Positions 15,604 through 38,849 of a stretch of 64,000 nt of DNA are shown one piece after another. Below the pieces are notes generated by a model. The model saw nothing but the letters and a program-made list of their open reading frames with translations, was not told where the DNA came from and searched no databases. Numbering within the stretch: the first letter of the stretch is position 1; each line of letters begins with the position of its first letter. A program made the translations under genes and the position numbers. The stretch is taken from NCBI GenBank assembly GCA_033344815.1, contig JAWPMR010000001.1, positions 234,136 to 298,135 of the forward strand, written 5' to 3'. This DNA is from Paracoccaceae bacterium. Its GTDB lineage: Bacteria > Pseudomonadota > Alphaproteobacteria > Rhodobacterales > Rhodobacteraceae.

Positions 15604-15707
15604 TCGGCGCGATTTTCGGCACGTTGCGATTCGCAGGCAGGTTCTTGGTTGCAGATCCTGCCGATCATGCGACCGCGGATCACAACGCGGCCGCTTGGAC
15701 CCATTGT

Positions 15708-17303
15708 TCAACGAAGTGCCGCGATCGTGGCCGCCACCGTGCTCACAGCCGCCACATTCTGCATGCCATATTCGATTGAGGCGCGATGCCAGTCCGCATT
15801 CATTGTCGAACAAGCATCTTCGGGCACGATCATCCGAAACCCTTTGTCCGCCCCCGTGCGCGCCGTGTGCTCGACACTCATGTTCGTCCAACTGCCCGTA
15901 TTGATAATTGTATCCCTGCCCCCGCCATGCAGATAGGCTTCAAGCCGTGAGGTTTCCCAAGCGGACATGCTCATCTTTTCGACAATCAAATCACCGGGCT
16001 TCGGTTCCAGCCCCGGCACTGGCGCCACGCCCCATGTGCCGCGCACGAGCGCCTTGTGTTCCGCCAGACCCTGTTGCAGTGGCGCGTGTTGGCACAGATA
16101 CGGCGCGCCGGGTTCCAGAACCATCCAGACATGGATGATCATCACCCCCTTTGCGCGCGCCGCATCAGCAAGTTTTGCGACATTGCTCACAACGTTCTGT
16201 TGTCGCGCGTGATCAGGCGAACCGGTAAAGGCAAAGGCGCCCCCATCCATCATCACATCGTTTTGCAGATCCTGAATGATCATCGCCGCTCTTTTACCCT
16301 CAATGGGATCCACCGACGTTTGAACCATCGCGCTTTGCACCTGTGTCGTGCCCGTCGGTGTGTCTCGCGGTGACAGGGCGTGTGGGCTCATAAAGGGTTC
16401 AGGCCGACCCGTTGTTTTGGTGTCAAGCGCATAAAGTCCGGTGCTGGCGCAGACATAAAGCGTGTTCCACCCCTGCCCGCCCCAATGCATATTGGCGGTT
16501 TTCTCGGGGACCGCGATCTTGCCTATCAGTGCGCCATAGAAATCATAAACCCAAAGACCGCCGGGGGCCGTCACAAACAGATTGCCCTTGTCGTCAGCCT
16601 TCATGCCATCCGGCACACCTTCAAGCTGGCTGTCCTTGATGCCGCTGGCGAAGAGACGCCCGTTTACCAACCGCCCATCAGCGGCCACATCAAACATGCG
16701 AATATTGGCCTGATCCGTGTCATTCACCCACATCCAGCGCTGGCAGGGACTGAAAGTTAACCCATTGGGTTGGCTGAACATGTAGCGATCTGTGACGAGT
16801 TGCGGCTCATCTCCAGGCGCATGACCGGGCGGGATGCGGTAAACGCCTTGAAACCCTTGCTGGACAGGACGCGGCACGCCAAAATGTTCAAGACGGCCAT
16901 ACGTCGGATCGGTAAAGTAGATCGACCCGTCATTGCCAACAACGATATCATTGGGAGAGTTGAGTTCCTTGCCCTCAAAGTGCGAGCACAAAACGGTGCG
17001 GGTCCCGTCCGGCGCGATCCGCACAACGGAGCTGGTGGCATGTTCGCAGATCAATAAATTGAGCTGCGCGTCATAGGTCATACCGTTGCCCTTTTGCGAG
17101 GGGCGAGCAATTTCGGTGATGTCGCCGCTGGTCGGGTCATACCTGCGCCGCACATCCCCCGGCATATCCGAAAAGATCAGATCGCCATTGACCGGGTGCC
17201 ACAGTGGGCCTTCGGTAAAGATGAACCCCGATCCAATCTGGCGCACCGGGGCGTCCAGATCAATGATCTGGTGAAAGGCATCCTGCAGTGCTGTATGTGC
17301 CAT
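15708..17303 (-). CDS. fusion of SMP-30/gluconolactonase and isochorismatase-fold hydrolase
   Basis: A 531-residue two-domain enzyme. Residues 1-305 form an SMP-30/gluconolactonase/LRE-like six-bladed propeller with the metal ligands Glu31 (FTEGPLW), Asn118 (SPNDI), Asn180 and Asp232 (VPDGMK); these enzymes hydrolyse sugar or aromatic lactones. After a linker (305-335) residues 336-531 form a cysteine-hydrolase (isochorismatase-like) fold with Asp345 (IIQDLQND) and Lys443 (VEKMS). The nucleophile position, normally Cys in a TNxCVExTA motif, is Ser476 here (TNMSVEHTA). The start has GAGG upstream and lies nine bases after the preceding stop. Last gene of the long leftward operon. Confidence 0.88.
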   Translation of the reverse strand: MAHTALQDAFHQIIDLDAPVRQIGSGFIFTEGPLWHPVNGDLIFSDMPGDVRRRYDPTSGDITEIARPSQKGNGMTYDAQLNLLICEHATSSVVRIAPDGTRTVLCSHFEGKELNSPNDIVVGNDGSIYFTDPTYGRLEHFGVPRPVQQGFQGVYRIPPGHAPGDEPQLVTDRYMFSQPNGLTFSPCQRWMWVNDTDQANIRMFDVAADGRLVNGRLFASGIKDSQLEGVPDGMKADDKGNLFVTAPGGLWVYDFYGALIGKIAVPEKTANMHWGGQGWNTLYVCASTGLYALDTKTTGRPEPFMSPHALSPRDTPTGTTQVQSAMVQTSVDPIEGKRAAMIIQDLQNDVMMDGGAFAFTGSPDHARQQNVVSNVAKLADAARAKGVMIIHVWMVLEPGAPYLCQHAPLQQGLAEHKALVRGTWGVAPVPGLEPKPGDLIVEKMSMSAWETSRLEAYLHGGGRDTIINTGSWTNMSVEHTARTGADKGFRMIVPEDACSTMNADWHRASIEYGMQNVAAVSTVAATIAALR

Positions 17304-17312
17304 GATGCGACC

Positions 17313-18161
17313 TCAGACCGCAAACCAAGGACGATCAGGCAGCGTTTCCGTCATTGGACCGGGTACGGTCATGCCCAAACGTCCAACCACTTTCTGACGT
17401 TCGATTTTGGCAGGCTTGTCATGGATCGGCAGCAAGAACGTGTAGTTGTTCAACAGCTTTTTGATCGCGCCTTTTTCTTCGCGTTTGGACTGGGAATGGT
17501 TCCCTGTCACGCGTGGCTCCATCCAGTTGTTGGTGTGCACATGGTTCACGATTTGGTCGTTGAAGTCATAAATCACATCCCCGCAAATGCAGGCCAATCC
17601 CTCGGCGGTTTCCACGATCACGTTCATCGACCCTTCGGTATGCGCACCCGCATGTTCACACCACACACCGGGAATGATCTCTTCGGCGGTGGTGATGTCC
17701 AGATCCAGAAAGCGGATCGCTTCAGGCTCGTAAATGCGATCTACGAGGTGCTTGATATCGGGCTTGGGGTATTGCGGAAACATGATACCGGACACGGAAA
17801 ACTCCATCTCGCGCCGGTTCAAAACCACCGTTGTGTTCATGGGGAAAAGATCATCCTTGCCGGCATGATCGATGTGCAAATGGGTGTGCAGGATATACCG
17901 GATATCACCCAGTTTCAGGCCATGTTTTGCCAGTTGTTGTTCGATCATGTTCTCATGGAATTGCAACCCGCGCATGCCGAGGCTTTCCATGATCGCATTG
18001 TCGCGGTAGCCGGTATCCACAAGCACGGGGTATTCACCGCCGGTGATCAAGAAGCCGTAGACCGGTACACGGCGGACGCGCCCGCACTCATGCCCGAGCA
18101 CCAGAAAGCTGGTTTCCAATTCGATGTCGCCATAATCCAGAATGTGAATTTGCAAGGCCAT
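17313..18161 (-). CDS. metallo-beta-lactamase-fold hydrolase, N-acyl homoserine lactonase-like
   Basis: A 282-residue cytoplasmic hydrolase of the MBL fold with the di-zinc motif HTHLHIDHAG (His94, His96, Asp98, His99), a later ligand His in the EHAGAHTEGS stretch, Asp in CGDVIYDF and a final His near LPIHDKP. The arrangement is that of AHL lactonase-type enzymes, which open lactone rings. The ATG at 18161 has AGGGAGGA seven bases upstream; longer frames run into the amidohydrolase gene. A lactone-opening role fits the neighbours, an SMP-30 lactonase and an amidohydrolase of the lactonase type, better than quorum quenching. Confidence 0.9.
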   Translation of the reverse strand: MALQIHILDYGDIELETSFLVLGHECGRVRRVPVYGFLITGGEYPVLVDTGYRDNAIMESLGMRGLQFHENMIEQQLAKHGLKLGDIRYILHTHLHIDHAGKDDLFPMNTTVVLNRREMEFSVSGIMFPQYPKPDIKHLVDRIYEPEAIRFLDLDITTAEEIIPGVWCEHAGAHTEGSMNVIVETAEGLACICGDVIYDFNDQIVNHVHTNNWMEPRVTGNHSQSKREEKGAIKKLLNNYTFLLPIHDKPAKIERQKVVGRLGMTVPGPMTETLPDRPWFAV

Positions 18162-18174
18162 GTAGGTTCCTCCC

Positions 18175-19050
18175 TTAGAGCCGGTAGACCCGCTTTGCGG
18201 TGTCATTAAATATGAGTTTTTGTTGTGGTTTGGTGAGGCTGGATGCACCCTTTTGAAAGGCTGCGAATAGCTCCGCGTAGGTGGTCCAGATTTTTTCGAT
18301 TGGAAAATTGGACCCGAACATGCAGCGTTTCGCCCCAAAGATGGCCACGGTTTCGCGGATCATATCCGCAATCAGCGCCGGATCGTTTCGATGCACAAAA
18401 GTGCCAAAGGCGGACAGCTTGCTCACCACATTCGGACATTTCGCAAGCTTTTTCATCTGCACACGCCAATGCTCCCACCCTTCCGGGCTGAGATCCGTGA
18501 GCATACCGGCATGTTGCAAGATAAACGTGACCTCTGGGCATGCATTTGCCAGTTCGATCGCCCCATCCATTTGGTCAGGAAAGACTTGCAGATCAAAACT
18601 CCAGCCGTATTGCGCCAGATGTGCGATGTTCTTTTGCACAACCGGGTCACGGGCGACATCGCCATGGGGCGCGAAACGGTACATCGGCTTTTCGTGCCAG
18701 TGCAATTGCTGGCGAATCCCGCGCATCAGAGCAAAGCCTTCGAGCCTATCCAGCTGTGGGCGCACATCATCGACCCGGAAATCCGCATAGCCCACAATGC
18801 CGTGCGGCCAGCCATGTGTGTCCGCCACCGATTGGACCCAGGCGACTTCGTCCACAAACCAATTAGGACTCCAGTTGGCCTGCACATAGACCGATTTCGT
18901 AATCCCCGTCTCCGCGATATCCGCCAAATATTCGTCGATTTCATAGTCCCGCATGATGCTGCGGTAGCTGCCAAAAATGCGCGGCTGTTCGGGGCCCAGC
19001 AGCCAGGGCAGATCTTTTTGCAGCCAGATATGGTGGTGTGCGTCGATCAT
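18175..19050 (-). CDS. amidohydrolase family 2 (TIM-barrel lactonase/dicarboxylate hydrolase-like)
   Basis: A 291-residue TIM-barrel metal-dependent hydrolase of the amidohydrolase-2 family, which includes L-fucono- and L-rhamnono-lactonases and 2-pyrone-4,6-dicarboxylate lactonase. Visible features are the N-terminal MIDAHHHIW (HxH ligand pair), a central GIRQQLHWH segment, ILQHAGM with the strand-6 His, and FGSNFPIEK where the strand-8 Asp is replaced by Asn. The change of the usual GSDxP to GSNFP is shared by several lactonase-type members. It overlaps the VWA gene by ATGA and precedes the MBL gene by 13 bases. Confidence 0.88.
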   Translation of the reverse strand: MIDAHHHIWLQKDLPWLLGPEQPRIFGSYRSIMRDYEIDEYLADIAETGITKSVYVQANWSPNWFVDEVAWVQSVADTHGWPHGIVGYADFRVDDVRPQLDRLEGFALMRGIRQQLHWHEKPMYRFAPHGDVARDPVVQKNIAHLAQYGWSFDLQVFPDQMDGAIELANACPEVTFILQHAGMLTDLSPEGWEHWRVQMKKLAKCPNVVSKLSAFGTFVHRNDPALIADMIRETVAIFGAKRCMFGSNFPIEKIWTTYAELFAAFQKGASSLTKPQQKLIFNDTAKRVYRL

Positions 19051-20144
19051 GCGGCTCTCGCTAAGTTAAGGATATGGGTGGTGATGGCCTGTGTGTCCGA
19101 GCCGTCGCCGAGGGTATGGATGTGTGGCAGGATCGCTTTGAGCGCGTCCGTTTTAGGCGCGAAGTCCTCGGATGCCAGCGGTGTCAGCCAATCCACGCGC
19201 CAGGCCATCCGCGACAAACGGCTAACAGCTTCGATCATCGCATCAGGCGCGCCACGCTCTAACCCGTCCGATAAAACCACCACCGCAGCCCCGCGCGCAA
19301 ACCCCGCGTATCGTGGCACCGCGAGGTAGGCGAGCAGCGCATCGCCAATCCGGGTTCCGCCATCGAAATCGGCAACAGCTTGCGTCACGCGTGTCAGCGC
19401 CATGGCGCGATCCGCAGGTCTCAATGCCGTGGTGATCCGGGTCAACCGCGTGCCAAGCGTGAAAACCTCGGCGTGATCTGCCGCCTGCACAAGTGCATGC
19501 GCCAGCCGCATCGATGCATTGGAGCGATCCTTCATCGAGCCGGAGACATCCACCAACAGCAGAACACGCCGTTGGCGGGTTTTGCGCTTGGTTTCAAACA
19601 GATGGATTACCTCGCCGTCACGTTTGGCGGCCTCTTTCAGAATGCGGCGCATATCCATCGCGGTGCCATTCTTTGCGGATTGATTGCGATAGGACAGCCG
19701 TCGTGGCAAGGCGCGCGGCGCTTGGCGCGCAAATTGTTGCAAGGCGGCCTCCCCGCCTTGATCGGACAGGTCTCGCTGACCCAACCGTTCGCTTACCGTG
19801 GCTTCGCCGCCAATTTCTGACTCCTCATCGGGAGCCTCGACATCTTGCGTATCGCCTGTGGGCTCATAGGCTTCCACCGCAACATCGTCATCTTCTTCGA
19901 TTGGCGCGGCCACGGTCTGTCCTAAAAATACCGCGCGAAAGAGCGCGTCATACTGCCCACGCCGCTCAGGCTGCACCGAAAACACAGCCAGCCCGCTGCG
20001 GTAAATATCATCCATGTTGCGCGGGCCCAAAACACCCACCGCTGCAATAAAACCTTCGGTCTGATCCGGTGACACCGCAAAACCGGCGCGCCGCAGGGCT
20101 TGGGCAAAAGTAATAAATGGCTCCAAGGCTCGGGGCAGCGTCAT
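19047..20144 (-). CDS. coxE: VWA domain protein, CoxE type
   Basis: A 365-residue protein with an acidic central linker (residues 82-115, rich in Glu and Asp) and a C-terminal von Willebrand A domain containing the MIDAS motif DVSGSM (Asp199, Ser201, Ser203). CoxE works with the AAA+ ATPase CoxD in maturing the active site of molybdenum hydroxylases such as carbon monoxide dehydrogenase of Oligotropha carboxidovorans. The gene directly follows the MoxR/CoxD-type gene with ATGA overlap, and both follow the hydroxylase structural genes, so they presumably insert or sulfurate the cofactor of that enzyme. Confidence 0.9.
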   Translation of the reverse strand: MTLPRALEPFITFAQALRRAGFAVSPDQTEGFIAAVGVLGPRNMDDIYRSGLAVFSVQPERRGQYDALFRAVFLGQTVAAPIEEDDDVAVEAYEPTGDTQDVEAPDEESEIGGEATVSERLGQRDLSDQGGEAALQQFARQAPRALPRRLSYRNQSAKNGTAMDMRRILKEAAKRDGEVIHLFETKRKTRQRRVLLLVDVSGSMKDRSNASMRLAHALVQAADHAEVFTLGTRLTRITTALRPADRAMALTRVTQAVADFDGGTRIGDALLAYLAVPRYAGFARGAAVVVLSDGLERGAPDAMIEAVSRLSRMAWRVDWLTPLASEDFAPKTDALKAILPHIHTLGDGSDTQAITTHILNLARAA

Positions 20145-21022
20145 GCGGCTTCCCCCGGCAAGATACCCTCTAGGCGGGGAGCCATGTAAGTCAGGTCATC
20201 GTGATCCTTGAGCGCCACACCAATGGCCCGTGCAAACGCCTCTGGCCAGCGCACGCCTTGCGTGTTCAAAAGCGTGGCGGCTTCGGCCCACTCGATTGTT
20301 TCAGCCACGCCGGGTGGTTTCGCCAATGGTTCCGCACGCAATCTGTTCACCGAACCGACAACGGCGACGGCTGTCGCATGGGCCACCGATGAGGCCCGCG
20401 CCATCACGATTTCCGCCTCCAACGCGGGGTCCGGATAGTCGATCCAGTGATAAACGCAACGCCGCCGCAACGCTTCATGCAAGTCGCGCGTCCGGTTGGA
20501 TGTCAGCACCACAACCGGGGGGCGCACGGCGCGCACTGTCCCGGTTTCCGGGATTGAGATGGTAAAATCCGACAGGAATTCCAACAGGAAAGCTTCAAAT
20601 TCATGGTCTGAACGGTCGATTTCGTCGATCAGCAGCAGTGTATTGCCGGGATTTCGCAGCGTTTCTAACAAGGGGCGTTGGAGGAGAAAATCTTCGGCGT
20701 AAAGGTTGACCGGGTCTTGATCTGCCTGCCGGATCGCCAGCAATTGGCGTGGGTAATTCCATTCATAAAGGGCCGCAGCCGCATCAATACCCTCATAGCA
20801 CTGTAATCGGATCACGTTGCGCCCCAAAACGCCCCCAAGAGCTTTGGCGGCTTCGGTTTTCCCAACGCCCGGCGCCCCTTCCAGCAACATCGGTTTGCCA
20901 AGTGCCAATGACAAATATGCCGTCGTCGCCAAGGCATCATCCGCGAGGTATTGCGCCGCCACAAGCGCCTGCTGCAACGCTTCGGGCGAAGAAATGCCCG
21001 CGATATTTGACTGGACCGCCAC
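20141..21022 (-). CDS. coxD: MoxR family AAA+ ATPase, CoxD type
   Basis: A 293-residue AAA+ ATPase with Walker A GAPGVGKT (residues 49-56), Walker B LLLIDEIDRSD, and a sensor-1 LTSNRTRDLHEALRRRC stretch including the arginine finger region. MoxR proteins act as chaperones with a VWA partner, here the CoxE-type protein that follows. The start codon is GTG at 21022, immediately after the stop of the large-subunit C-part with no spacer; coupling of translation is therefore likely. Length is normal for the family. Confidence 0.92.
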   Translation of the reverse strand: MAVQSNIAGISSPEALQQALVAAQYLADDALATTAYLSLALGKPMLLEGAPGVGKTEAAKALGGVLGRNVIRLQCYEGIDAAAALYEWNYPRQLLAIRQADQDPVNLYAEDFLLQRPLLETLRNPGNTLLLIDEIDRSDHEFEAFLLEFLSDFTISIPETGTVRAVRPPVVVLTSNRTRDLHEALRRRCVYHWIDYPDPALEAEIVMARASSVAHATAVAVVGSVNRLRAEPLAKPPGVAETIEWAEAATLLNTQGVRWPEAFARAIGVALKDHDDLTYMAPRLEGILPGEAA

Positions 21023-22045
21023 TTAGCGCACGGCCTGGGGTTTTGCGCCGCCCAGGGCCTGAATGCCGCGCAGAACCTTCTCGGGCGTGATCGGCAAGGC
21101 ATCCACCCGCACGCCCACCGCATTGTAAACGGCGTTCGCAATCGCGGGCAAAACCGGGTTCGCGCACATTTCACCGGGCCCTTTACCTCCAAAAGGCGCA
21201 TCCTCTGCGGGGCGTTCAAGAACGGCGATGTTATGGGGCACCACCTCGCCCGGTCCGGGCATCAGGTAGGTGTTGAAGTCTTCTGGCCCGTGATCGCGCA
21301 CCGGATAATAGGGTTCGGTCGTTTCATACAGCGCGTGCGACACGCCCATCCACGCCCCGCCAATCAGTTGTTGTTCCACCAGTTTAGGGTTCAAGGCGCG
21401 GCCCACTTCGTAGGCGGAATTAATCTGCGTGACGGTGACTTCACCGGTTTCATCGTCCACCGTCAGATCGATCACCAAGGCGGCATGCGCGAAACAGCTG
21501 ACCGGGGTCATTTCGCCGGTTTCCGGATCGGCTTCAGAAGGCGGAATGAGGAATATCCCGCGCCCGGACAGAGTCCGTCCCTGTTTGAATTGCGCCGCTA
21601 TGGCGGTGTCCGCGACTGAAATGGACCGGGTTGGCGCCCCTTTGACGTGGATATTGCCCAGACCGTCCGTATCCAGATCAGAGGCGTTGACCTCCAATTC
21701 TTCTGCCGCCGCTTCGAGCATCTGCTGGCGCGCCTCGCTTGCCGCCCGGATGACCGCGTTGCCGACGCGGTGCGTGCCGCGCGAGGCAAAGGAGCCCATA
21801 TCATGTGGGCCGGTATCGCTGTCGGCGGTGTCCACATAGACATCCTCGACCGGTACGCCGATGGTTTCCGACGCGATCTGGCGGGTTACTGATTTCATGC
21901 CCTGCCCTAGATCGATTGCTGAGAGGGCCACCATGAATTTGCCATCCGGCGTCGAATGTACCAGGGCTTGAGACGGATCGCCGCCAAGGTTCATGCCAAT
22001 GGGATAGTTGATGCAGGCAAAGCCGCGTCCTGTATGGATGGCCAT
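21023..22045 (-). CDS. molybdenum hydroxylase large subunit, C-terminal part (split gene)
   Basis: A 340-residue protein that corresponds to the C-terminal half of a xanthine-dehydrogenase-family molybdopterin-binding subunit. It starts within the family sequence (RGFACINYPIGMNLGG), carries the cofactor-binding DLGQG (Gln48-Gly49), and ends with the catalytic-glutamate loop GGKGPGEMCANP (Glu292). Alone it lacks the first two cofactor-binding loops, which are encoded by the gene just upstream. Its ATG lies two bases after that gene's stop, in another frame, with AGGAGGAG as ribosome site formed by the last Arg codons of the upstream gene. The two products should assemble as one active subunit. 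Confidence 0.9.
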   Translation of the reverse strand: MAIHTGRGFACINYPIGMNLGGDPSQALVHSTPDGKFMVALSAIDLGQGMKSVTRQIASETIGVPVEDVYVDTADSDTGPHDMGSFASRGTHRVGNAVIRAASEARQQMLEAAAEELEVNASDLDTDGLGNIHVKGAPTRSISVADTAIAAQFKQGRTLSGRGIFLIPPSEADPETGEMTPVSCFAHAALVIDLTVDDETGEVTVTQINSAYEVGRALNPKLVEQQLIGGAWMGVSHALYETTEPYYPVRDHGPEDFNTYLMPGPGEVVPHNIAVLERPAEDAPFGGKGPGEMCANPVLPAIANAVYNAVGVRVDALPITPEKVLRGIQALGGAKPQAVR

Positions 22046-22047
22046 GG

Positions 22048-23904: not shown

Positions 23905-24386
23905 CACGCGGTCCTCCCTTGCAGGCGGGCGGCAGCGGTCAGGATTGCATCAATAATCGGCTCATACCCCGTACAGCGGCACAGATTACCGCTGATTGCT
24001 TCAGCCACGTCTTCGCGTGTTGGGTTCGGGTTGGCGGCCAGCAAGGCCTTGGCGGACATCAACATGCCTGCCGTGCAAAACCCGCATTGCGCGGCAAAAC
24101 CTTCCATGAAAGCGGTTTGCAAGGGGTGTAATTCCGGCCCATTGGCCAGACCGCCTGTCGTCTCAATGGCCTTGCCGTCCGCAGCCTCGGCCAGCGTCAG
24201 ACAACTCAGGCGAACTTCGCCGTCAATCAGAACGGTGCATGCGCCACAGGTCCCTTGACCGCAGCCATGTTTGGGCGTCAAATCCCCTGCCCCGCGCCGC
24301 AGAACGTCCAGCAGGTTCGCGCCTTCATCGACAAAAAGAGCTGCGTCCGCGTCGTTCAGTTTAAATTGAATGGGTCGTTTGGCCAT
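23904..24386 (-). CDS. molybdenum hydroxylase small subunit, 2Fe-2S (CoxS type)
   Basis: A 160-residue iron-sulfur subunit with a plant-type 2Fe-2S centre (Cys42, Cys47, Cys50, Cys62 in CGQGTCGAC and SCLT) and the second helical 2Fe-2S centre (Cys101 and Cys104 in CGFC, Cys136 and Cys138 in CRC). It passes electrons from the molybdenum site to the FAD subunit. I chose the ATG at 24386 (MAKRPIQF), two bases after the FAD-subunit stop; the frame is open further upstream but only inside that gene. All eight cluster cysteines are present, so the subunit looks functional. Confidence 0.95.
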   Translation of the reverse strand: MAKRPIQFKLNDADAALFVDEGANLLDVLRRGAGDLTPKHGCGQGTCGACTVLIDGEVRLSCLTLAEAADGKAIETTGGLANGPELHPLQTAFMEGFAAQCGFCTAGMLMSAKALLAANPNPTREDVAEAISGNLCRCTGYEPIIDAILTAAARLQGRTA

Positions 24387-24388
24387 CC

Positions 24389-25620: not shown

Positions 25621-25621
25621 A

Positions 25622-26059
25622 TCAGCCCCCGAAATGCCGTTTGAGCGCATCAAACCCGCCCTGAAACACATTGGTCCCAATGCCTGCGACCAAATCGCTC
25701 TCATCCTTGGGATCGCAGGAAAACTCGGCGGACCATTCCGCAAAACACCGGGTGCCGTCGGTCACTGGCGTCAACCGAAGTGTCGCCACATAATCCGACA
25801 GCGGCATGGGCCCTTCGAGCATGCTGTAGGTGCAAAACATGTCATAATCGCTCAGCCCCAACAGTTGCTCGCGGATCATGTCACCCGATTGCAGGTTGAA
25901 ATTTCGAATACATCCCACCTTGTCTGAGGGCAGCGCGTCCTCAATCCGGCTGTCTCGGATGCGCGGATGCCACTTGGGCAATGCATTGAAATCACGTACT
26001 CTTTCCCAGACGGATTCCGCGGACGCGTTGATCACGCTTGATACAAAAACGCGTGCCAT
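25622..26059 (-). CDS. SRPBCC family protein, CoxG-like (copy 1)
   Basis: A 145-residue SRPBCC protein, first of a tandem pair that arose by duplication. It begins MARVFVSSVINASAESVWERV and has KWHPRIRDS and KVGCIRNF at the same positions as its neighbour. The pair lies between the flotillin-like gene and the hydroxylase genes, and its start overlaps the flotillin stop by one base (TAATG). The two copies have diverged mainly in the C-terminal half, compatible with a heterodimer or two ligands. Confidence 0.85.
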   Translation of the reverse strand: MARVFVSSVINASAESVWERVRDFNALPKWHPRIRDSRIEDALPSDKVGCIRNFNLQSGDMIREQLLGLSDYDMFCTYSMLEGPMPLSDYVATLRLTPVTDGTRCFAEWSAEFSCDPKDESDLVAGIGTNVFQGGFDALKRHFGG

Positions 26060-29000: not shown

Positions 29001-29253
29001 GCGCGTTTTCCCGCTGGCGCACCAGGTTCATATCAAGCGAGTTCATATTGACCGGCGTGATGTCGTGAATGATCGGCCAGACGAATGCGCCGCCATTGAT
29101 CACGACCTTCTCGCCCAGGAAACCCGTGCGCACAAACGCGACTTCCTTGGTTGAGCGGCGATAGAGCCAGTTCATCACCCAATAGAGGATGAAAACGACG
29201 ATTACCGCCATGATCAGCCATAAAATCAGCTGTCCAATCAGTTCTCCGGTCAT
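26059..29253 (-). CDS. giant flotillin-like SPFH protein with long hendecad coiled coil
   Basis: A 1064-residue membrane protein. Residues 5-31 form one membrane helix; residues 33-215 form an SPFH (band 7) domain; from about 240 to 860 the chain is an unbroken charged helix, and a Gly/Ser linker (about 975-990) joins it to an Arg/Ser/Lys-rich tail. An aliphatic residue recurs at exactly every 11th position from Ile296 to Leu857. The architecture is that of flotillin/YqiK proteins, which oligomerise as membrane microdomain scaffolds, but the coil is about twice the usual length. The ATG has AAGGAGGAA upstream, 18 bases after the preceding stop. In this operon it probably tethers or clusters the molybdenum hydroxylase at the membrane; this role is inferred from context only. 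Confidence 0.9.
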   Translation of the reverse strand: MTGELIGQLILWLIMAVIVVFILYWVMNWLYRRSTKEVAFVRTGFLGEKVVINGGAFVWPIIHDITPVNMNSLDMNLVRQRENALITKDRMRVDVDASFYVRVKQEKASVALAASTLGRRTLEPERIHQLLSGRFISALRTVAAEMTMEELHMQRNDYLNRVIEVAQEGLNANGLELESVAVLDIDQTDIEYFNPSNRFDAEGLTSVIAAVEERRKLRNDIEQDTMIKIRERNLEAERKSLDIERESESARLDQERDIEFQRAQQRAELTRERAEREKEAEQASLLSKEAIETSRISNDEQIAEARIASERKIRQQEIARQQVIDEAEIATRETVEKARISQERVLTETRIKSEKDTQAADIAAKETIEKARISQEKTLTEARIARDQETQSKEIERQRIVDEADISAKEVIEKARIAQERAVTQARIELERSTRETEIARNLSIEEAEIASREASERLRIAQEQTISRERISSDKETRQLEIERQKVLEEAEIASQQATEAARIAREKALAAERIASQQTTRALEIEQRKTLDRAEIAAHEETSKERIAQEERIRGLEIARNRAVEEAEIAAREEVEKSRIAQERALAVQRIDAQEKTEERDVARTRALAKAETAKAEAIEAGRIAKEKKVAAERIAYEQDMREREIAKNRAVDVANLTAQETVNAARIAEEARTRAAEIEKEAEVRSREIEKNEAVEAAEISSRRLVESQRIEKEAETTADKIARDQKIRDLEIARNKALDAAQIAADEAVEAARVVKEKTVDAERILAEQEIDAKKLERKKVLEQLEIARVQALREAEITSQEDVERAKIASERGLDDARIGHQTERRRLEIAREKAVEEASMEKAIALYQKSLDESAAAVEAENARARAVAAAEKVKTATDTEIASRQKVVGVTAAELQAEEKRIAAEAEKVRAAVEAEAARLINEAENVLSDEARHSLFKRKMLEHVEGIVTASAKPLEKINDIKIMQLGGSGTQGLDWANGGGDGGSGGGGGASPTDEVMNSALRYRVQAPFVDSLLTDIGIDGSNIAKSDIFRNASDMSRSTSEIARAKAQQKKDDK
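26674..28386 (-). repeat. 52 tandem 33-base (11-residue) repeats within the flotillin-like gene
   Basis: The coding region for residues 290-860 is built from 11-codon units with pattern xxxI(A/S/E)xxxxxx. Ile, Val, Leu or Met occupies every 11th residue from 296 to 857 except Thr615. Units group into higher repeats of 33 or 44 residues marked by recurring EAEIA blocks at about 326, 404, 448, 492, 536 and 569. No insertion or deletion breaks the register. Confidence 0.9.
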
Positions 29254-29271
29254 GGTGTTTCCTCCTTCGGC

Positions 29272-30096
29272 TTAGCGGCCGATTTCCTTGAATCTCTTGG
29301 TTTGTGCGGTCAGCGCGACCTCGGTCGGCAAGCGTTCCATTGAGGATGCGCCGTAAAATCCGTGGCAGTATTTTGTATTTTTCAAAACGAATTCCGCGTC
29401 TTCGGGCATAGCAACAGGGCCCCCGTGCACCAACACGATGGCGTTCGGGTTCACGTCCAGCGCCGCCTTGGCCCATGCATCCGTCAGCGCCGGTGCCTGT
29501 TCCAGCGTGCAGCCGGTTTCCGCGCCAATTGATCCACCCGTTGTCAGGCCAAGATGCACCACGATGATGTCGGCTCCGGCTTCGGCCATGGCCTTTGCAT
29601 CCGCTTCGCTGAACACGTAAGGCGTGGTCAGCAGGCCCTTTTTATGGGCGGCGGCGATCATGTCGACTTCGAGTTGATAGGACATGCCCGTTTCTTCGAG
29701 GTTGGCACGGAAATTACCGTCGATCAGGCCTACAGTCGGAAAGTTCTGAACGCCGGAAAAGCCGGCATCCGCCACCTGATCCAGAAACTTATCCATCAAG
29801 CGAAATGGATCTGAAGCACAGACCCCAGCGAGAACGGGTGTGTGTTTGACCACCGGCAGCACTTCACCGGCCATTTCCATGACCACGCCGTTTGCATCCC
29901 CATACGGCATGAGCCCGGCAAGCGATCCACGCCCTGCCATACGGTAACGTCCGGAGTTATAGATCACGATCAGATCAATGCCGCCCGCCTCTTCGCATTT
30001 CGCCGACAGCCCCGTGCCAGCACCACCGCCAATGATGGGTTCGCCGGCATCACGCATGGCTCGGAAATTCTGCATTAAAGTGTCGCGGTCGATCAT
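29272..30096 (-). CDS. TIM-barrel protein of the PEP-hydrolase/Tm-1 C-terminal family
   Basis: A 274-residue TIM-barrel protein of the PEP-mutase-like family that forms the C-terminal domain of the tomato Tm-1 resistance protein (Pfam phosphoenolpyruvate hydrolase-like). Visible are [12 protein letters not shown] near residue 22-33, the [16 protein letters not shown] block, [10 protein letters not shown] and a late [10 protein letters not shown]. In bacteria this family is nearly always next to, or fused with, the UPF0261/Tm-1 N-terminal domain, which here lies at the end of the gene directly upstream. Biochemical function is not established. It starts three bases after that gene. Confidence 0.88.
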
Positions 30097-30099
30097 GGA

Positions 30100-32247
30100 T
30101 CAGGCTCCTTTCGCCAGGCGAGGTTGCGTGTGAAGCGACCGGAAAGTCTTGATCACAAGCGCTGAAAATTCAGGGTCATTGATGTTGTGAGGCGTGCGGA
30201 TCAATTGCCGGTTTGCCGTTGTGCGTACGGTCTGTTCGAGTGTCTCAAACAGGGCTCTATTCGCATCCGGATCCCAAAACGGTTGGTCTGGCGCATCCAG
30301 TGCTGACACGCCGCCCTCGGGTAGGAAAAACCGCACCACACCGTTCATATTGTTGATTTTTTCACCGATGAACCGCCCCATTGCGACGTTTTCGTCCACA
30401 GTCGTCCGCATCAGCGTAATCTGCGGATTGTGTTCGTAGAACAATCGCCCTTGAAATTTGGCAGGCACGGTTTCGGGCGCATTAAAGTTCACCATGTCGA
30501 GCGCACCGCAAGACCCGATGAAAGGCAAACTACTTTGTGCAGCGGCATCGAAACGAGTCTCATTGGCCGCAAAAACACCGCCCGCGACCATGTCGCAAAC
30601 CTCGGTTGTGGTCAGATCAAGCGCCCCTGCGAGCATGCCCGAGGACAGCAGTTTTTCCATCGACCGTCCGCCTGTCCCGGTCGCATGGAACACAAGGCAA
30701 TCGTAGTCGCTTTCCAGATCCGACACGATTTGCTGCACACAAAGCGTGGTCACGCCGAACATGGTGATCCCGATCGCGGGTTTGTCTGTTTGCGCGGCGC
30801 GCGTCTGTTGGCGGGCTTTGGTCATGCCAGCGATGGCATGCGCCGCATTCCCAAGCACCTCGCGGGTGATCGAATTGAGCCCCTGCACATCCGCCACAGA
30901 ATGCATCAGCGTAATGTCTGAAGGCCCCACGTATTGTTCGGTATTGCCGCTGGCGACGGTCGATACGATCAGTTTCGGGACCCCGACGGGTGGCACGCGG
31001 AACCCAGGGGCCACAAGCGCTGTACCGCCAGACCCGCCTGCCCCGATCAGCCCGGCAACATCGTGCCGTCCCGTCATCCAACGTTCAAATGCCACCGTCA
31101 TGCCCGCCACGGCCGTGCCACGATCACCCGTGAAGACGGCCGCGGAACCGCGCGGGTGAAAACCCGCGATTGCATGGGGCGGTACCTCTGCGCCCGACGG
31201 TTTGCCAGAGGTGGACAGATCGACAAGCGCGACCTTCACACCCTGGCCTATGATGATGTCACGCATAAAGCGCAACTCGTCTCCCTTGGTATCAAGCGTG
31301 CCGCAGACATAGACCGTGCCGCTTTTTGCAGCATCCACACGCACCGGTGCAGCCTGTTGAACACTGGCAACCTGCGTCACCGTGCGGGCAGAAGTTTCAA
31401 TGACATGCACCGGCACCGGCGGGGTCCAACGTGTCGGCACCTTGGGATTGGAAAGATACAGCTTCACCGGGCCTTTGTGGTGTTTTTCTTCCGTGGCAGG
31501 CGTTGCCGTCTGACCCGGTTCAGGCGTTTCATCATGCGCGTGGCGTCCAACGCCCAGAAGCGCCTGTTGCAAATCGCGGTCGGCGGCCAAGACACCTGCG
31601 TCCATGCTCCGGTTGATCTTGCCATTGACCATGATTGCGACCTGCTCAGCGACGGCACACGCCACGCCGATGTTTTGTTCGATCACCAGAACGTCGATGT
31701 CGCCTTCTTGACCAAGTCGGATCAACATTTCCTGTACTTGCGTGACAATCACCGGGGCGAGGCCTTCGGTCGGCTCGTCCATCACCAGCAGTTTCGGATT
31801 CAGCAACAGCGCGCGTCCAATGGCCAGCATTTGCTGTTCACCGCCCGACAATTGGCCACCGCCATTTGATTTACGTTCAGCGAGGCGCGGAAAAACCGAA
31901 TAAATCCGCTCAGGTGTCCAACTGCCACCCTTGATTGCCACCAGCCGCAGGTGTTCATCAACCGTCAAAGATTTCCAGAGCCGCCGCCCCTGCGGGACAT
32001 AGCCAATGCCCAGACGGGCGATTTCTGCGGGCCCAAGACCGGCCAGTGATTGACCATTGAAGCTGATTGAACCGGCGGCGGTTGGTTCCAACCCCATGAT
32101 CGCCTTGCACATGGTGGTTTTGCCCATGCCGTTACGCCCGACCACGGATAAAACGCCATGCTCCAGCGTCAGGTTCACCCCTTGCAGCGCGTGGGACTGG
32201 CCGTAATAGACGTTGAGGTCTTTGATTTCCAAAGTTGGGCTACTCAT
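30100..32247 (-). CDS. fusion of LivF-type ABC ATPase and Tm-1-like (UPF0261) domain
   Basis: A 715-residue two-domain protein. Residues 1-240 are a branched-chain-amino-acid-type ATPase (Walker A GRNGMGKTT at 38-46, signature LSGGEQQ, Walker B LLVMDEPTEGLAP). After a Pro/Thr-rich linker (240-310) residues 312-715 form a UPF0261/Tm-1-like ATP-binding domain starting with YVCGTLDTKGDEL and containing GAGGSGGT and the HATGTGGRSME loop. Plant Tm-1 uses the homologous domain to bind a viral replication protein; the bacterial function is unknown. The ATG overlaps the LivG-type stop by eight bases. The fusion physically links the importer to the Tm-1/TIM-barrel pair. Confidence 0.9.
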   Translation of the reverse strand: MSSPTLEIKDLNVYYGQSHALQGVNLTLEHGVLSVVGRNGMGKTTMCKAIMGLEPTAAGSISFNGQSLAGLGPAEIARLGIGYVPQGRRLWKSLTVDEHLRLVAIKGGSWTPERIYSVFPRLAERKSNGGGQLSGGEQQMLAIGRALLLNPKLLVMDEPTEGLAPVIVTQVQEMLIRLGQEGDIDVLVIEQNIGVACAVAEQVAIMVNGKINRSMDAGVLAADRDLQQALLGVGRHAHDETPEPGQTATPATEEKHHKGPVKLYLSNPKVPTRWTPPVPVHVIETSARTVTQVASVQQAAPVRVDAAKSGTVYVCGTLDTKGDELRFMRDIIIGQGVKVALVDLSTSGKPSGAEVPPHAIAGFHPRGSAAVFTGDRGTAVAGMTVAFERWMTGRHDVAGLIGAGGSGGTALVAPGFRVPPVGVPKLIVSTVASGNTEQYVGPSDITLMHSVADVQGLNSITREVLGNAAHAIAGMTKARQQTRAAQTDKPAIGITMFGVTTLCVQQIVSDLESDYDCLVFHATGTGGRSMEKLLSSGMLAGALDLTTTEVCDMVAGGVFAANETRFDAAAQSSLPFIGSCGALDMVNFNAPETVPAKFQGRLFYEHNPQITLMRTTVDENVAMGRFIGEKINNMNGVVRFFLPEGGVSALDAPDQPFWDPDANRALFETLEQTVRTTANRQLIRTPHNINDPEFSALVIKTFRSLHTQPRLAKGA

Positions 32248-33037
32248 CTTCGCCGCCCCCCAGATAAAGCGCCTGCACTTCTGGATCCTCTTCGATCTCG
32301 GCGGGTTTGCCCTCTTTGAAAATGCGCCCGTTGTGCATCATCGTCACCATGTCAGAGACGCGCAGCGCCACATCCATGTCGTGCTCAATGATGATGTAGC
32401 CGACATGGGCGGGCAGCCCGGTCAGGATTTCAATCAATTCCGTCCGCTCCGTTGGGCTTAGCCCGGCCGCAGGTTCATCAAACAGGATAAAGCGCGGCGC
32501 ACCGGATAACGCCATCGCGATCTCGAGTTGGCGCTGTTGGCCATAGCTCAAGGTGCTGACCATCGAGTCCTGGACATCGTCCAGATGCACCATATGCACC
32601 AGATCCCGCGCGGTCGCCATCAGCGCGTCATCATAGCGAGGCCGTATCAGGGAAAACCGCCCGCGCGAAACGCCCCGGCAGGCCAGATAGACATTGTCGA
32701 TCACGCTGAGACCGTGGAACAGCAACGAAATCTGATACGTACGGCGCAACCCCCGCCGAATCCGTTCCTGTGCAGGAAAAGCAGAGACGTCCTCGCCAAA
32801 AAACCGGATGGCCCCGGTTGAGGGCGGGAAATCCCCGGTGATGCAATTGAACAGGGTCGTTTTTCCGGCCCCGTTTGATCCAAGTACCGCGTGCCTTTCA
32901 CCTGGGTGTACGGTCATGTTGATATCAGCGAGCGCCACCAATGCGCCAAATTTCTTGGACACATTGCGCAATTCGAGTGCGAATTCGGTACCGGTCGATT
33001 TCATCCGGTCAGAGACATTTGGTACGGCAGCACTCAT
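32240..33037 (-). CDS. ABC transporter ATP-binding protein, LivG type
   Basis: A 265-residue ATPase of the branched-chain amino acid (HAAT) family with Walker A GSNGAGKTT, signature LSYGQQRQLE, Walker B FILFDEPAAGLSP and H-loop IEHDMD. The signature reads SYG instead of SGG, which is usual for LivG. I chose the ATG at 33037 because it overlaps the LivM stop by ATGA; a longer frame begins inside LivM. Partner of the LivF-type domain encoded next. Confidence 0.94.
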   Translation of the reverse strand: MSAAVPNVSDRMKSTGTEFALELRNVSKKFGALVALADINMTVHPGERHAVLGSNGAGKTTLFNCITGDFPPSTGAIRFFGEDVSAFPAQERIRRGLRRTYQISLLFHGLSVIDNVYLACRGVSRGRFSLIRPRYDDALMATARDLVHMVHLDDVQDSMVSTLSYGQQRQLEIAMALSGAPRFILFDEPAAGLSPTERTELIEILTGLPAHVGYIIIEHDMDVALRVSDMVTMMHNGRIFKEGKPAEIEEDPEVQALYLGGGEDE

Positions 33038-34095
33038 GGCGATGTACCAGTATCGCGCCCTGTCAGCGGGTCTTTTTGCCGGCTGTCTTTCAGGCGCTTC
33101 CACAGGCCCAGAAGGCCATCCGTTGAAAACAGCACGATGATCAGAAAGCCTAGGCCGATCAAAAGCTGGAATCGTTCACCGGACAAACCAAGCGCGATCA
33201 GCACATCAATGGCAAAGGTCTTGAGCAGAACATAGATAAAGGCCCCAAGAAACGCGCCGATGGGGTGCGACATCCCACCAATCACTGCGATCACAAGAAT
33301 GTCTATGGCTGCTTGGATGCCCACCGTTCCGGGCGATATCTGTGCAGATTGCCAGGTCAGAAGGATGCCACCGACACCAGCAGGGATCGCCGCAAGAGCG
33401 TAGGCTGCGACCCGGTGCGCGGTTACATTGTATCCAAGCGCTGCCATCCGGCGCGGGTTATCGCGCACCCCTTGCAGGGCCAAACCAAACGGCGCGCGCG
33501 AGATATAGAGCACGGCGAGATAACTCAGGACCGCAAAGAACAGCGTCATGTAATAAAACGCCTTGGGTCCGCGCCAATTCACCCCAAGAAGCTCTGGCGG
33601 GAACACCCCGTTGAAGCCCTGAAACCCATTGAAGAGATCGTAATTTTGCCGCGTGAAATAGAAAAATGCCGCTGCGATCGCGAGGGTAATCATGATCGTA
33701 TAAATGCCCTCAGTGCGCACGGCGAGCCAACCGATTGCGGTGGCAAACAGGACCGTCAAAAGCAACGCGAGCGGGATGGTCAGCCACCAGGGCATGCCCA
33801 TCGAAATCCCAGTGATGGCGCTGTCCCCGAAAATCGCAACGAGGTATCCGGCAAAACCCGCAAACGTCATCTGCGCCAGACTGACCATGCCGCCGTACCC
33901 GCCCAGAAACATCAAGCTCAGCGCGATCATGCCTAGAATGAAGGTCCAGCCAAAAATCTGGTACATCACGAAATTCGACGCAAAACTGGGGATGATCAGT
34001 AGTAAGACACCGCCAATCCAATAGGGTGCCGGAATGCGTTCGACCCATGTGCGATGATCACTGTTCTGTGCCGTATGGTTGTCTGCAACGGCCAT
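33034..34095 (-). CDS. ABC transporter permease, LivM type
   Basis: A 353-residue inner-membrane permease with about ten hydrophobic segments and the HAAT-family stretch GGYGGMVSLAQMTFAGFAGY near residue 65-85 and the cytoplasmic ALGYNVTAHRVAAYA loop. It starts one base after the LivH stop. It forms the transmembrane channel with LivH. The family carries branched-chain amino acids, but also amides, urea and aromatic acids, so the substrate is open. Confidence 0.94.
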   Translation of the reverse strand: MAVADNHTAQNSDHRTWVERIPAPYWIGGVLLLIIPSFASNFVMYQIFGWTFILGMIALSLMFLGGYGGMVSLAQMTFAGFAGYLVAIFGDSAITGISMGMPWWLTIPLALLLTVLFATAIGWLAVRTEGIYTIMITLAIAAAFFYFTRQNYDLFNGFQGFNGVFPPELLGVNWRGPKAFYYMTLFFAVLSYLAVLYISRAPFGLALQGVRDNPRRMAALGYNVTAHRVAAYALAAIPAGVGGILLTWQSAQISPGTVGIQAAIDILVIAVIGGMSHPIGAFLGAFIYVLLKTFAIDVLIALGLSGERFQLLIGLGFLIIVLFSTDGLLGLWKRLKDSRQKDPLTGRDTGTSP

Positions 34096-34096
34096 A

Positions 34097-35122
34097 TCAG
34101 GATTTTCCCATCAGGCCTTGGGGGCGGAAAGCCAGCACGATCACCATGATCAGAAAGGTCAGCACCACAGCGTAGGTCGGGAAATAGACAGAGCCAAACT
34201 GTTCCGCCAGGCCGATCAGCAGCGCACCCAAAGCGGCACCCGGGATCGAGCCCATGCCCCCCACGATCACAACCACAAGCGAAGCCAGCAGAAAACGAAT
34301 GTCCTCTCCCGGTGCGACGGATTGGAATGTGCCGCCGACAACACCCGCAATCCCTGCCAACCCGGCCCCAAAGGCAAAGACGGCAACAAACACCAGTTGG
34401 ATACGTGATCCGGTGGCTGACAACATGTCACGATCATCAACGCCTGCACGGATCATCATGCCGATCCGGGTTTTGTTTAGCGCAAGCCACATGCCAACAC
34501 CGACAACCACAGAGGCCACAAAAATCACGATGCGCACCATAGGGTATTTCATGTAAATCAGGTCACCCGAGGAGCGTTTTACGCCTGTCACGAAAAACGT
34601 TTCCATCGGGCCGGACAGCCACGCGGGCGGCGAAATATTGAAGAAATCCCCCCCAAACCCCCAAAGCATCAGATCAGCCATCACGATGGAAATACCAATG
34701 GTCACAAGAGTTTGGCGCAAATCATCGCCCTCCATACGGCGAAAGATCAGGATCTGCAGCAAGACGCCAAAGAACCCGACGACGACAAAGGCCACCGGGA
34801 ACGCCAGAAGCCAATATCCGGTTGCATCCGCGACAAAAAAGCCAACGTAGCCACCCAACAAATAGAGCGAGCCATGCGCCAGATTAACATTCCGCATCAG
34901 CCCGAAGATCAGCGTGAAGCCGGAAGCCACGAGGAAATACAGCCCGCCCAAGGTGATGCCGTTAAAGAGCGCGTTGAGGAATACTTTTTTACGACCAATG
35001 ACGTCGATCAACTCTGGCGGCCAGATCGCAAAAATCAGCCAAAGCAGAACGACCGATACAACAGCCAGCACGGCTGTCCACACCGGGTGGCTATTTGCGA
35101 AAGCTCTCACAAATATCCCCAA
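34097..35122 (-). CDS. ABC transporter permease, LivH type
   Basis: A 341-residue inner-membrane permease, longer than classical LivH by an N-terminal extension with one added hydrophobic segment (residues 14-35) before the typical NGITLGGLYFLVASGFTLIF start of the core. The first codon at 35122 is TTG; a GTG at 35110 with GGGGA upstream is an alternative start that removes four residues. First gene of the tightly packed leftward operon; the AraC gene ends 120 bases upstream and those 120 bases may hold a promoter. Confidence 0.9.
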   Translation of the reverse strand: MGIFVRAFANSHPVWTAVLAVVSVVLLWLIFAIWPPELIDVIGRKKVFLNALFNGITLGGLYFLVASGFTLIFGLMRNVNLAHGSLYLLGGYVGFFVADATGYWLLAFPVAFVVVGFFGVLLQILIFRRMEGDDLRQTLVTIGISIVMADLMLWGFGGDFFNISPPAWLSGPMETFFVTGVKRSSGDLIYMKYPMVRIVIFVASVVVGVGMWLALNKTRIGMMIRAGVDDRDMLSATGSRIQLVFVAVFAFGAGLAGIAGVVGGTFQSVAPGEDIRFLLASLVVVIVGGMGSIPGAALGALLIGLAEQFGSVYFPTYAVVLTFLIMVIVLAFRPQGLMGKS

Positions 35123-38762: not shown

Positions 38763-38795
38763 GATCAAGCACCGCTGGCAGGGAAGGTCAAATTT

Positions 38796-38829: not shown

Positions 38830-38849
38830 CGACCATCAGGGAGAAACCA

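Follow-up and report, generated by a model that had tools for sequence, protein, structure and literature searches.

A conserved bacterial operon linking a Liv-type importer, a giant flotillin and a split molybdenum hydroxylase

A block of 17 genes in the window (the whole analysed stretch of 64,000 nucleotides, from contig JAWPMR010000001.1 of a Paracoccaceae bacterium) combines a Liv-type importer, a giant flotillin and a split molybdenum hydroxylase, and is inherited collinearly in many species. There is in our view an even chance that it encodes an import-and-oxidation assembly organised by the flotillin and anchored to the membrane, in which the oxidoreductase is interchangeable and the molybdenum enzyme is tethered by a tail. 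Among the 80 best flotillin matches with one genome per species (named loci), the genes from LivH to CoxE were complete and in order in 59; 18 were interrupted by contig ends and 3 deviated. Culturable carriers include Roseibium album, Jannaschia pohangensis and Shinella zoogloeoides. Because gene order is conserved, chance is ruled out, and the original observation is upheld.

All 17 ORFs lie in tandem on the minus strand from 35122 to 15708, with the coordinates and families originally predicted. Start codons were refined by eye using homology before the 16 junctions were measured. These span -8 to +18 nt, so that the predicted spacer limit of 18 bases is exact; that most genes overlap was overstated, because only 7 of the junctions do so. 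Between 15500 and 35400, 22 terminator-like sites were found versus 22.7 expected from shuffles, i.e. no excess. The block extends to 40118 once the upstream genes, also on the minus strand, are counted. They encode a LivK-type periplasmic substrate-binding protein (422 aa, 38850..40118; UrtA/LivK-like, below the equivalog cut-offs), the fast evolving iron-ADH-like protein FeADH (37698..38768; profile match), an aldehyde dehydrogenase, ALDH (36271..37701; top score for the ketoglutaric semialdehyde type, below cut-off) and an AraC-family regulator (35243..36118; family match, refined start). A consensus scan placed an intrinsic-terminator-like hairpin of 16 pairs with a T-run 3' of LivK (38803..38837, minus strand). 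The genes upstream of LivH are often part of the block: in the 58 named loci of more than 20 kb we detected LivK 55 times, AraC 51 times, FeADH 44 times and the variably present ALDH 31 times.

The importer belongs to the Liv/HAAT type, having two BPD_transp_2 permeases, LivH (34097..35122) and LivM (33034..34095), two ATPases and a type I substrate-binding protein. The gene for LivG (32240..33037; refined start) shares 4 nt with that for LivM. LivF, the second ATPase, is joined to the Tm-1 domain in a single protein of 715 aa (30100..32247; domain and structure matches), which corrects the layout originally predicted. This fusion was present in 27 of 27 flotillin-linked loci versus none of 15 others; the ORF exceeds 600 aa in 72 named loci, is truncated in 4, and is missing from 4 contigs. 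Both the N- and the C-domain of UPF0261 scored above cut-off (NF002673: 602.8 vs 520), and the Tm-1 domain matched PDB 3wry (3e-98). The adjacent gene encodes its PEP_hydrolase-like TIM-barrel partner (PF09370, 274 aa, 29272..30096; family and structure matches), which matched 2p10 (3e-112). A fold search with the TIM model ranked 2p10 first, followed by TIM barrels with diverse functions, methylisocitrate lyases among them, pointing to no clear function, and TIM and flotillin distances correlate at only 0.49. The same domains, judged by structure match, make up tomato Tm-1 and the bacterial UPF0261-PF09370 pairs, but here Tm-1 is fused to an importer ATPase, and only in flotillin-linked loci. 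UPF0261 and PF09370 are reported to co-evolve, and the tomato relative to block a virus (PMC5028733).

The flotillin (1064 aa, 26059..29253) comprises an N-terminal hydrophobic stretch recognised by eye, a Band_7/SPFH domain, a proline-free region of 681 residues (43% charged, presumably a coil) and a Flot domain. As in the bacterial flotillins FloT and YqiK, both domains score above the curated Pfam cut-offs (Band_7 59.3 bits, Flot 116.6 bits). It differs from FloT in scoring 27.5 on NF058507 against a cut-off of 700, from unlinked flotillins in its length, the open frames of the latter being mostly 510-620 aa, and from bacterial flotillins in lying inside an importer operon. A tandem-repeat search of the gene yielded one short row only. 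Across 398 genomes of the phylum (E <= 1e-30 and 1e-35 for the flotillin/PF09370 search), flotillins with at least 59% identity adjoin PF09370 in 12 of 15 cases, those with at most 55% in none of 36. A distinct group of flotillins is thus tied to this importer.

The molybdenum hydroxylase consists of a FAD subunit (24389..25183), a [2Fe-2S] subunit (23904..24386; refined start) and a large subunit split into the N-terminal part MoL1 (22048..23907; 619 aa including a tail) and the C-terminal part MoL2 (21023..22045). Genes for a CoxD/MoxR-type AAA+ ATPase (20141..21022) and a CoxE-type VWA protein (19047..20144) follow, and all these proteins other than the two large-subunit parts were assigned by family matches. 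MoCoBD_1, MoCoBD_2, [2Fe-2S] and FAD domains together with the GxGE motif, whose glutamate is present in 64 of 64 MoL2, place the enzyme in the XDH/Mo-hydroxylase superfamily. The split falls between MoCoBD_1 and MoCoBD_2 as in nicotinate dehydrogenase 3hrd (which we take to be Eubacterium barkeri NdhL/NdhM); this structure ranks first among the PDB matches of MoL1 (1e-55) and second among those of MoL2 (3e-39). Enzymes of that type catalyse nicotinate 6-hydroxylation at a selenium-containing Mo site; to our knowledge, importer, flotillin, SRPBCC and tail are by comparison specific to the present operon. Xanthine dehydrogenase is ruled out: of its presumed substrate residues, Glu at bovine E802 is replaced by Val in all 71 MoL1 sequences and Arg at R880 by Lys in all 70 (rows with letters there in a 72-row alignment). 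We also rejected 4-hydroxybenzoyl-CoA reductase (the beta profile TIGR03195 gave 38 bits vs 405 and matched only positions 11-104; on the alpha profile TIGR03194 the halves scored 226 + 197 bits vs 995) and aerobic CO dehydrogenase (on TIGR02416 the halves scored 176 + 98 bits vs 991); MoL1 shows AMRGFG where the latter presumably has its Cys loop. The cox cluster (coxBCMSLDEFGHIK) likewise contains XDH-family FAD, FeS and Mo subunits and CoxD- and CoxE-type maturation genes, and it includes CoxG, a putative membrane-recruitment factor; the present operon has flotillin and importer instead and its SRPBCC proteins lie outside the COXG family; no CoxF-like gene was recognised in it.

The operon is made up of two separable modules. 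Module A comprises the Liv importer, Tm-1, TIM barrel, flotillin and SRPBCC, module B the split Mo-hydroxylase, CoxD/CoxE and the amidohydrolase. The importer, Tm-1, flotillin and SRPBCC of module A occur without a linked Mo enzyme in G144, G007, G240, G306, G047 and Variovorax L196. In type II loci module A is combined with an SRPBCC-dehydrogenase fusion (zinc-binding-dehydrogenase family, quinone-oxidoreductase subtype judged by eye), FAH, an alpha/beta hydrolase and an amidohydrolase, again with no linked Mo enzyme, which rules out the flotillin as a scaffold dedicated to the Mo enzyme. Conversely, module B or its core was found with no flotillin nearby (L193, L194, L195, L209-L213), in other Alphaproteobacteria and Nonomuraea; in a haloarchaeon the split Mo enzyme is accompanied by SRPBCC. 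G240 and G306 have both modules on separate contigs. Blocks at unrelated loci had been named as an argument against one system, and this applies in part, namely to these separated modules. Single components are lacking, too: the TIM gene next to Tm-1 in G240, G306 and L164, CoxD/E in L166/L167, and in G497, where Tm-1 is degenerate, matches to both PF09370 and MoL2. Apart from importer, flotillin and SRPBCC, no component is therefore indispensable. For the GC-rich G149 and G306, whose gene calls include spurious long ORFs, loci were read from tblastn/blastp tags.

Downstream of CoxE lie genes for an Amidohydro_2 hydrolase (18175..19050; fuconolactonase-like, below cut-off), a metallo-beta-lactamase-fold hydrolase, MBL (17313..18161; AHL lactonase/4-pyridoxolactonase-like, below cut-offs, refined start) and an SMP-30/gluconolactonase-isochorismatase-like fusion (15708..17303). 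In L193 and L194, the loci in which this linkage was read (those of L209-L213 being only 4 kb long), the amidohydrolase is the only hydrolase that accompanies the Mo enzyme. Two type I loci (G493, L197) lack MBL. In the isochorismatase-like domain Ser replaces the catalytic Cys, which we assume to sit in a TN.CVE motif, in 17 of 17 sequences including the window, so that it does not qualify as a cysteine hydrolase. FeADH has a median identity of 34% and His in 13 of 52 sequences at what we take to be a metal-ligand position, i.e. a mostly degenerate metal site. Some of these "enzymes" may therefore not be enzymes.

Residues 444-619 of MoL1 (22051..22578) form a proline-rich tail (31 Pro in 176 residues) ending in FLSGSRRR-COOH. 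Such a tail was present in 76 of 76 flotillin-linked sequences (63 complete named loci, the window, and 12 further type I loci, L192, L197 and L199-L208, of which one or two genomes may duplicate the named set) versus none of 7 unlinked ones. The unlinked sequences represent about three lineages and show only 51-59% identity, so presence of the tail could reflect phylogeny; among their genomes, G240 and G306 do carry flotillin, on another contig. Tails are 85-202 residues long overall; in the 63 complete loci they measure 100-202 residues (median 167) with about 18% Pro, and the end reads R-[RK]-R in all 63, with Gly at -5 in 59, Ser at -6 in 55 and the full F.S..G.RRR-type motif in 54. The DNA pattern F.SG.RRR-stop has 4 matches in the own genome (reversed control 1), among which MoL1 alone has the Ser. 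Since the tail occurs, among the sequences seen, only beside flotillin, the predicted membrane-held Mo enzyme appears plausible. The terminal Arg codons, mostly AGG AGG CGN, overlap the Shine-Dalgarno sequence of MoL2 (GGAGG/AGGAG near the end in 57 of 63), and RRR conservation may therefore be translational, which weakens it as a pure protein motif. That the whole tail is a translation device carrying this ribosome-binding site and otherwise evolving neutrally is nevertheless quite improbable, as flotillin-free MoL1 is closely coupled to MoL2 without a tail, 85-202 proline-rich residues far exceed what a Shine-Dalgarno sequence needs, and the preceding F, S and G are conserved, with differing codons in the 25 rows listed.

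The two SRPBCC proteins, SRPBCC1 (START-like, 145 aa, 25622..26059; family and fold matches) and SRPBCC2 (25180..25620; family match, refined start), had been called CoxG-like. This identity was rejected: Polyketide_cyc2 matched in 30 of 30 SRPBCC1 orthologues with Pfam COXG absent among the families found, and the 50 Foldseek matches listed were XoxI-like proteins and abscisic-acid receptors, not CoxG. An SRPBCC protein might still act as CoxG does, bringing quinone or membrane to the FAD subunit and making the flotillin patch an electron-transfer rather than a substrate-channelling station. CoxG has been proposed as the factor that brings CO dehydrogenase to the membrane (PMC4240915), and SRPBCC stands beside an oxidoreductase in most contexts read: it precedes the FAD gene in type I loci and L193, follows MoL2 in L195 (adjoining flotillin-free module B in both L193 and L195), and is fused to the dehydrogenase in type II. 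Besides the family and fold results, the lack of a membrane anchor visible by eye in SRPBCC1 and of an SRPBCC match in Nonomuraea L194 speak against this role, which we regard as rather unlikely. A slightly stronger, though still doubtful, contender is a conventional catabolic operon that is co-regulated without physical assembly, its flotillin merely helping membrane transporters to be expressed at a high level. Flotillins can stabilise many membrane proteins, and translational coupling alone could explain the tight spacing. However, the importer-linked flotillin group is distinct, both the LivF-Tm1 fusion and the MoL1 tail vary in step with flotillin, and G014, G010, G008 and G007 have an additional, unlinked flotillin.

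For the flotillin-organised assembly, we infer the physical complex, tail docking, ligand-carrier role and reaction order as follows. LivK would catch a small ring compound, which LivHMG and the LivF half of LivF-Tm1 would import. The closest PDB structures of LivK are 4zpj, 4ey3 and 4evq, the latter two presumably R. palustris aromatic-acid binders, and the substrate class is perhaps a small aromatic or N-heteroaromatic carboxylate; the literature searched pointed to no substrate. Since Tm-1 shares a polypeptide with the importer ATPase and the TIM gene adjoins, the pair probably works at the inner membrane face, either acting on the substrate or gating the importer. The flotillin would delimit a membrane patch around the importer, from which SRPBCC1 and SRPBCC2 may carry small ligands to the oxidoreductase. 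In type I loci, that of the window included, this would be the split Mo-hydroxylase, matured by CoxD/CoxE and tethered to the flotillin/importer complex by the long, probably disordered arm of MoL1. Ring opening by lactonase-type enzymes, as originally suggested, would fall to the amidohydrolase acting on the hydroxylated ring, with MBL and the SMP-30/isochorismatase-like proteins further downstream; ALDH perhaps oxidises a fragment. In type II loci the same core would serve the SRPBCC-dehydrogenase fusion with FAH, alpha/beta hydrolase and amidohydrolase. More tentatively, and at less than even probability, the flotillin might cage the patch round one ABC importer as a catabolic compartment, with the ATPase welded to Tm-1, cargo passed to START-like carriers, and oxidoreductases docked by carrier fusion (type II) or by the disordered Mo-enzyme arm (type I).

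In the literature searched we found no description of this block of about 20 genes, whose order is preserved in 59 species from one collection. It bears on what bacterial flotillins hold together, on the function of the Tm-1/UPF0261 and TIM-barrel pair and on the membrane attachment of Mo-hydroxylases, with the MoL1 tail and the LivF-Tm1 fusion as concrete handles for testing. A flotillin-caged compartment, if true, would represent a new kind of bacterial metabolon coupled to transport and the first physiological setting for the orphan Tm-1/TIM pair. The operon is common to many bacteria, and its importer, giant scaffold protein and Mo enzyme probably constitute one membrane-bound machine for the uptake and breakdown of a small ring compound.

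The original prediction placed an operon of 17 ORFs at 15708-35122, and all of these were found there on the minus strand, with gene families confirmed by Pfam and NCBIfam. In gene order, the Liv/Tm-1/flotillin part carries the domains BPD_transp_2 (twice), ABC_tran, ABC_tran with UPF0261, PEP_hydrolase, and Band_7 with Flot. Both SRPBCC proteins match Polyketide_cyc2. The Mo-enzyme part comprises FAD_binding_5/CO_deh_flav_C, Fer2/Fer2_2, Ald_Xan_dh_C with MoCoBD_1, and MoCoBD_2, the downstream part AAA, VWA_CoxE, Amidohydro_2, Lactamase_B, and SGL with Isochorismatase. The predicted tight coupling holds for the spacing (16 junctions of -8 to +18 nt with refined starts), but only 7 of the 16 junctions overlap and not most of them. 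Terminator-like and promoter-like matches showed no excess over shuffles in 15500-35400. As the genes for the binding protein LivK, the iron-ADH-like protein FeADH, an aldehyde dehydrogenase (ALDH) and AraC lie upstream on the same strand, the block extends over 21 genes (40118-15708). A hairpin of 16 pairs with a T-run is located 3' of LivK and would suit extra output of the binding protein. Further N-heterocycle/amide genes, encoding a creatininase (8648-9364), an Asp/Glu/hydantoin racemase (47274-48026) and hydantoinase B (60209-61936), are situated less than 25 kb from the operon.

When one genome from each of 84,980 species was searched with the SPFH part of the flotillin (alignment A1), 527 relatives were obtained; the following counts use the best 80 of them (72-85% identity; "named loci"). 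Carriers among these 80 are e.g. Roseibium album, Labrenzia sp. THAF82, Aurantimonas coralicida, Hoeflea alexandrii, Jannaschia pohangensis, Roseisalinus antarcticus, Metarhizobium album, Acuticoccus yangtzensis and MAGs labelled Granulosicoccaceae and Arenicellales. The order LivH to CoxE is complete and collinear in 59 of the 80, interrupted by contig ends in 18 and deviating in three: in L164 (3-kb contig) no TIM barrel separates Tm-1 from flotillin, and L166 and L167 have no CoxD/CoxE after MoL2, the C-terminal part of the split Mo-hydroxylase large subunit. Median identity to the window is 70-84% for LivF-Tm1, TIM, flotillin, MoL1 (the N-terminal part) and MoL2. Among the 58 named loci longer than 20 kb, 55 have LivK, 51 AraC, 44 FeADH and 31 ALDH, counting any match at E ≤ 1e-8. 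FeADH (37698-38768) is the fastest evolving member (34% median identity) and retains the metal-site His in 13 of 52 sequences, with mostly Arg at this position; given both features, it is possibly no longer a dehydrogenase. Pairwise distances of 14 genes in the 59 loci holding all of them correlate at 0.39-0.83 (LivF-Tm1/TIM 0.79, LivF-Tm1/MoL1 0.80, TIM/flotillin 0.49), which is weak support for co-inheritance because a common species history alone could produce such values. In G081:C5 (L072, L073) the Mo-hydroxylase end of the operon lies at a contig end and several frames are broken, suggesting a decaying copy or a poor assembly.

LivF and Tm-1 are fused in all 27 flotillin-linked loci and separate in all 15 without linked flotillin (51 loci examined, 9 without a Tm-1 match, including G497). 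Among the 80 named loci the fused ORF exceeds 600 aa in 72, is truncated in 4 and is absent from a short contig in 4. UPF0261 and TIM-barrel proteins are reported to co-evolve (PMC5028733), with UPF0261 in 491 of 504 bacterial genomes having the TIM-barrel protein.

In 398 phylum genomes (G-numbers), PF09370, the TIM domain, occurs in 27 (E ≤ 1e-30). It adjoins 12 of the 15 flotillins at least 59% identical to that of the window and none of the 36 at most 55% identical (E ≤ 1e-35). MoL2 was detected in 16 of the 398 (E ≤ 1e-60), 11 times beside flotillin (G000 included) and 5 times on flotillin-free contigs. Type I loci, in which flotillin and Mo enzyme are linked, were also read in G517, G493, G395, G379, G513, G221 and G543, and on Yoonia and Shinella plasmids. 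On the 336-kb Yoonia plasmid (L192, 26418-32681), SDR, FAH and SDR genes and three tyrosine integrases follow the operon, a possible transfer route.

Type II loci, without a linked Mo enzyme, retain LivHMKGF-Tm1, flotillin and SRPBCC1. Their SRPBCC2 forms a fusion of 489-511 aa with a domain of the zinc-binding-dehydrogenase family (confirmed by Pfam in G007, G240 and Variovorax; 504 aa in G306); by eye this domain appears quinone-oxidoreductase-like. In G144, G007, G240 and Variovorax paradoxus VAI-C, genes for FAH, an alpha/beta hydrolase and an amidohydrolase lie nearby; the G306 stretch is too short to reveal such neighbours. G240 and G306 lack TIM at this locus, and in G047 the 18 kb hold just importer-Tm1 and TIM with flotillin and a single SRPBCC. 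G497 retains importer, flotillin, two SRPBCC, the metallo-beta-lactamase-fold hydrolase (MBL) and ALDH, with no match to PF09370 (E ≤ 1e-30) or MoL2 (E ≤ 1e-60). The degenerate Tm-1 region on its LivF (G497:C7, L184, 7644-9701) scores 23.9 bits for UPF0261_C (cut-off 27), hinting that Tm-1 may decay once its TIM partner is lost. In G118 and G096, flotillin-free Tm-1-TIM accompanies Liv genes; several further cases have other ABC ATPase genes near. Beside Tm-1/TIM genes of G112:C4 (L082, 16999-18747), PF09370 forms one protein with a sigma-54 activator domain and a Fis-type HTH, possibly a ligand-sensing regulator; G118:C8 and G144:C1 are similar, and in G096:C47 only the barrel was seen.

The Mo-enzyme module also occurs with no flotillin near. 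Sinorhizobium sp. BG8 has SRPBCC-FAD-FeS-MoL1-MoL2-CoxD-CoxE-amidohydrolase, Nonomuraea gerenzanensis the part from FAD to amidohydrolase with no SRPBCC match. The haloarchaeon Salinigranum rubrum carries FAD, FeS, MoL1, MoL2, a cyclase and SRPBCC, with neither CoxD nor CoxE adjacent. Five f78-family genomes have FeS-MoL1-MoL2-CoxD-CoxE in 4-kb loci; two of them, G240 and G306, have a type II flotillin on a separate contig. Among the operon hydrolases, only the amidohydrolase travels with this module in L193 and L194.

Nicotinate dehydrogenase (3hrd) is the best PDB match of MoL1 and the second-best of MoL2, and its large subunit is split in the same way. GGGFGGKV is invariant in MoL1 (71/71), and a Lys occupies (70/70) what we take to be the Arg880 position of xanthine dehydrogenase; therefore this identity was set aside and the Mo enzyme is not called xanthine dehydrogenase. 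The GxGE glutamate is retained in all 64 MoL2 and the HxHxDH motif in all 16 MBL sequences. In the isochorismatase-like domain the catalytic Cys is replaced by Ser in 17 of 17 (residue 476 of the 15708-17303 product, within TNMS[VI]EHT). The TIM model (pLDDT 76.8, four loops below 50) matches 2p10, then TIM barrels with many functions.

In type I loci, MoL1 has a proline-rich C-terminal extension. It was seen in each of the 63 named loci that are complete, where it runs 100-202 residues beyond the domain (median 167), and in L192, L197, L199-L208 and the window (85-174 residues), 76 sequences in total with one or two genomes possibly counted twice. All 7 evaluable MoL1 not adjoining flotillin end 13-25 residues past the domain (L193 was left out due to a broken frame). 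The tail ends in F.SG.RRR or nearly so: R-[RK]-R in 63 of 63, Gly(-5) in 59, Ser(-6) in 55 and the whole pattern in 54. A DNA pattern for this motif matched 4 times in the own genome vs once for the reversed control, and only the MoL1 match encodes Ser. The terminal Arg codons, mostly AGG AGG CGN, double as the MoL2 Shine-Dalgarno sequence (GGAGG or AGGAG in 57/63); in the window (22051-22059) AGG AGG AGA resembles it. That the tail merely carries this ribosome-binding site seems nevertheless quite improbable.

For O. carboxidovorans, PMC4240915 places CoxD and CoxE in the maturation of the cofactor and gives CoxG as a proposed factor for bringing CO dehydrogenase to the membrane. The SRPBCC1 model (pLDDT 93.8) has XoxI-like proteins as first fold neighbours, then abscisic-acid receptors, and CoxG was not among the 50 fold matches listed; a CoxG-like delivery of quinone by SRPBCC is accordingly doubtful in our estimate. 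Quinone delivery and the ribosome-binding site concern single parts and overlap with the readings of the whole operon, so these likelihoods need not add up to certainty. For the whole, the genes might be co-regulated without physical assembly, which we regard as rather unlikely. No paper on this operon was among the literature matches listed for Tm-1/UPF0261/PEP hydrolase, flotillin with molybdenum hydroxylase, and Variovorax/SRPBCC.

We favour over such co-regulation, at an even chance, that the operon encodes a flotillin-organised assembly for import and oxidation. Its substrate might be, at somewhat less than an even chance, a small (hetero)aromatic carboxylate, to which the presumed ligands of LivK's nearest structures, the nicotinate-dehydrogenase-like split and the hydrolases point.
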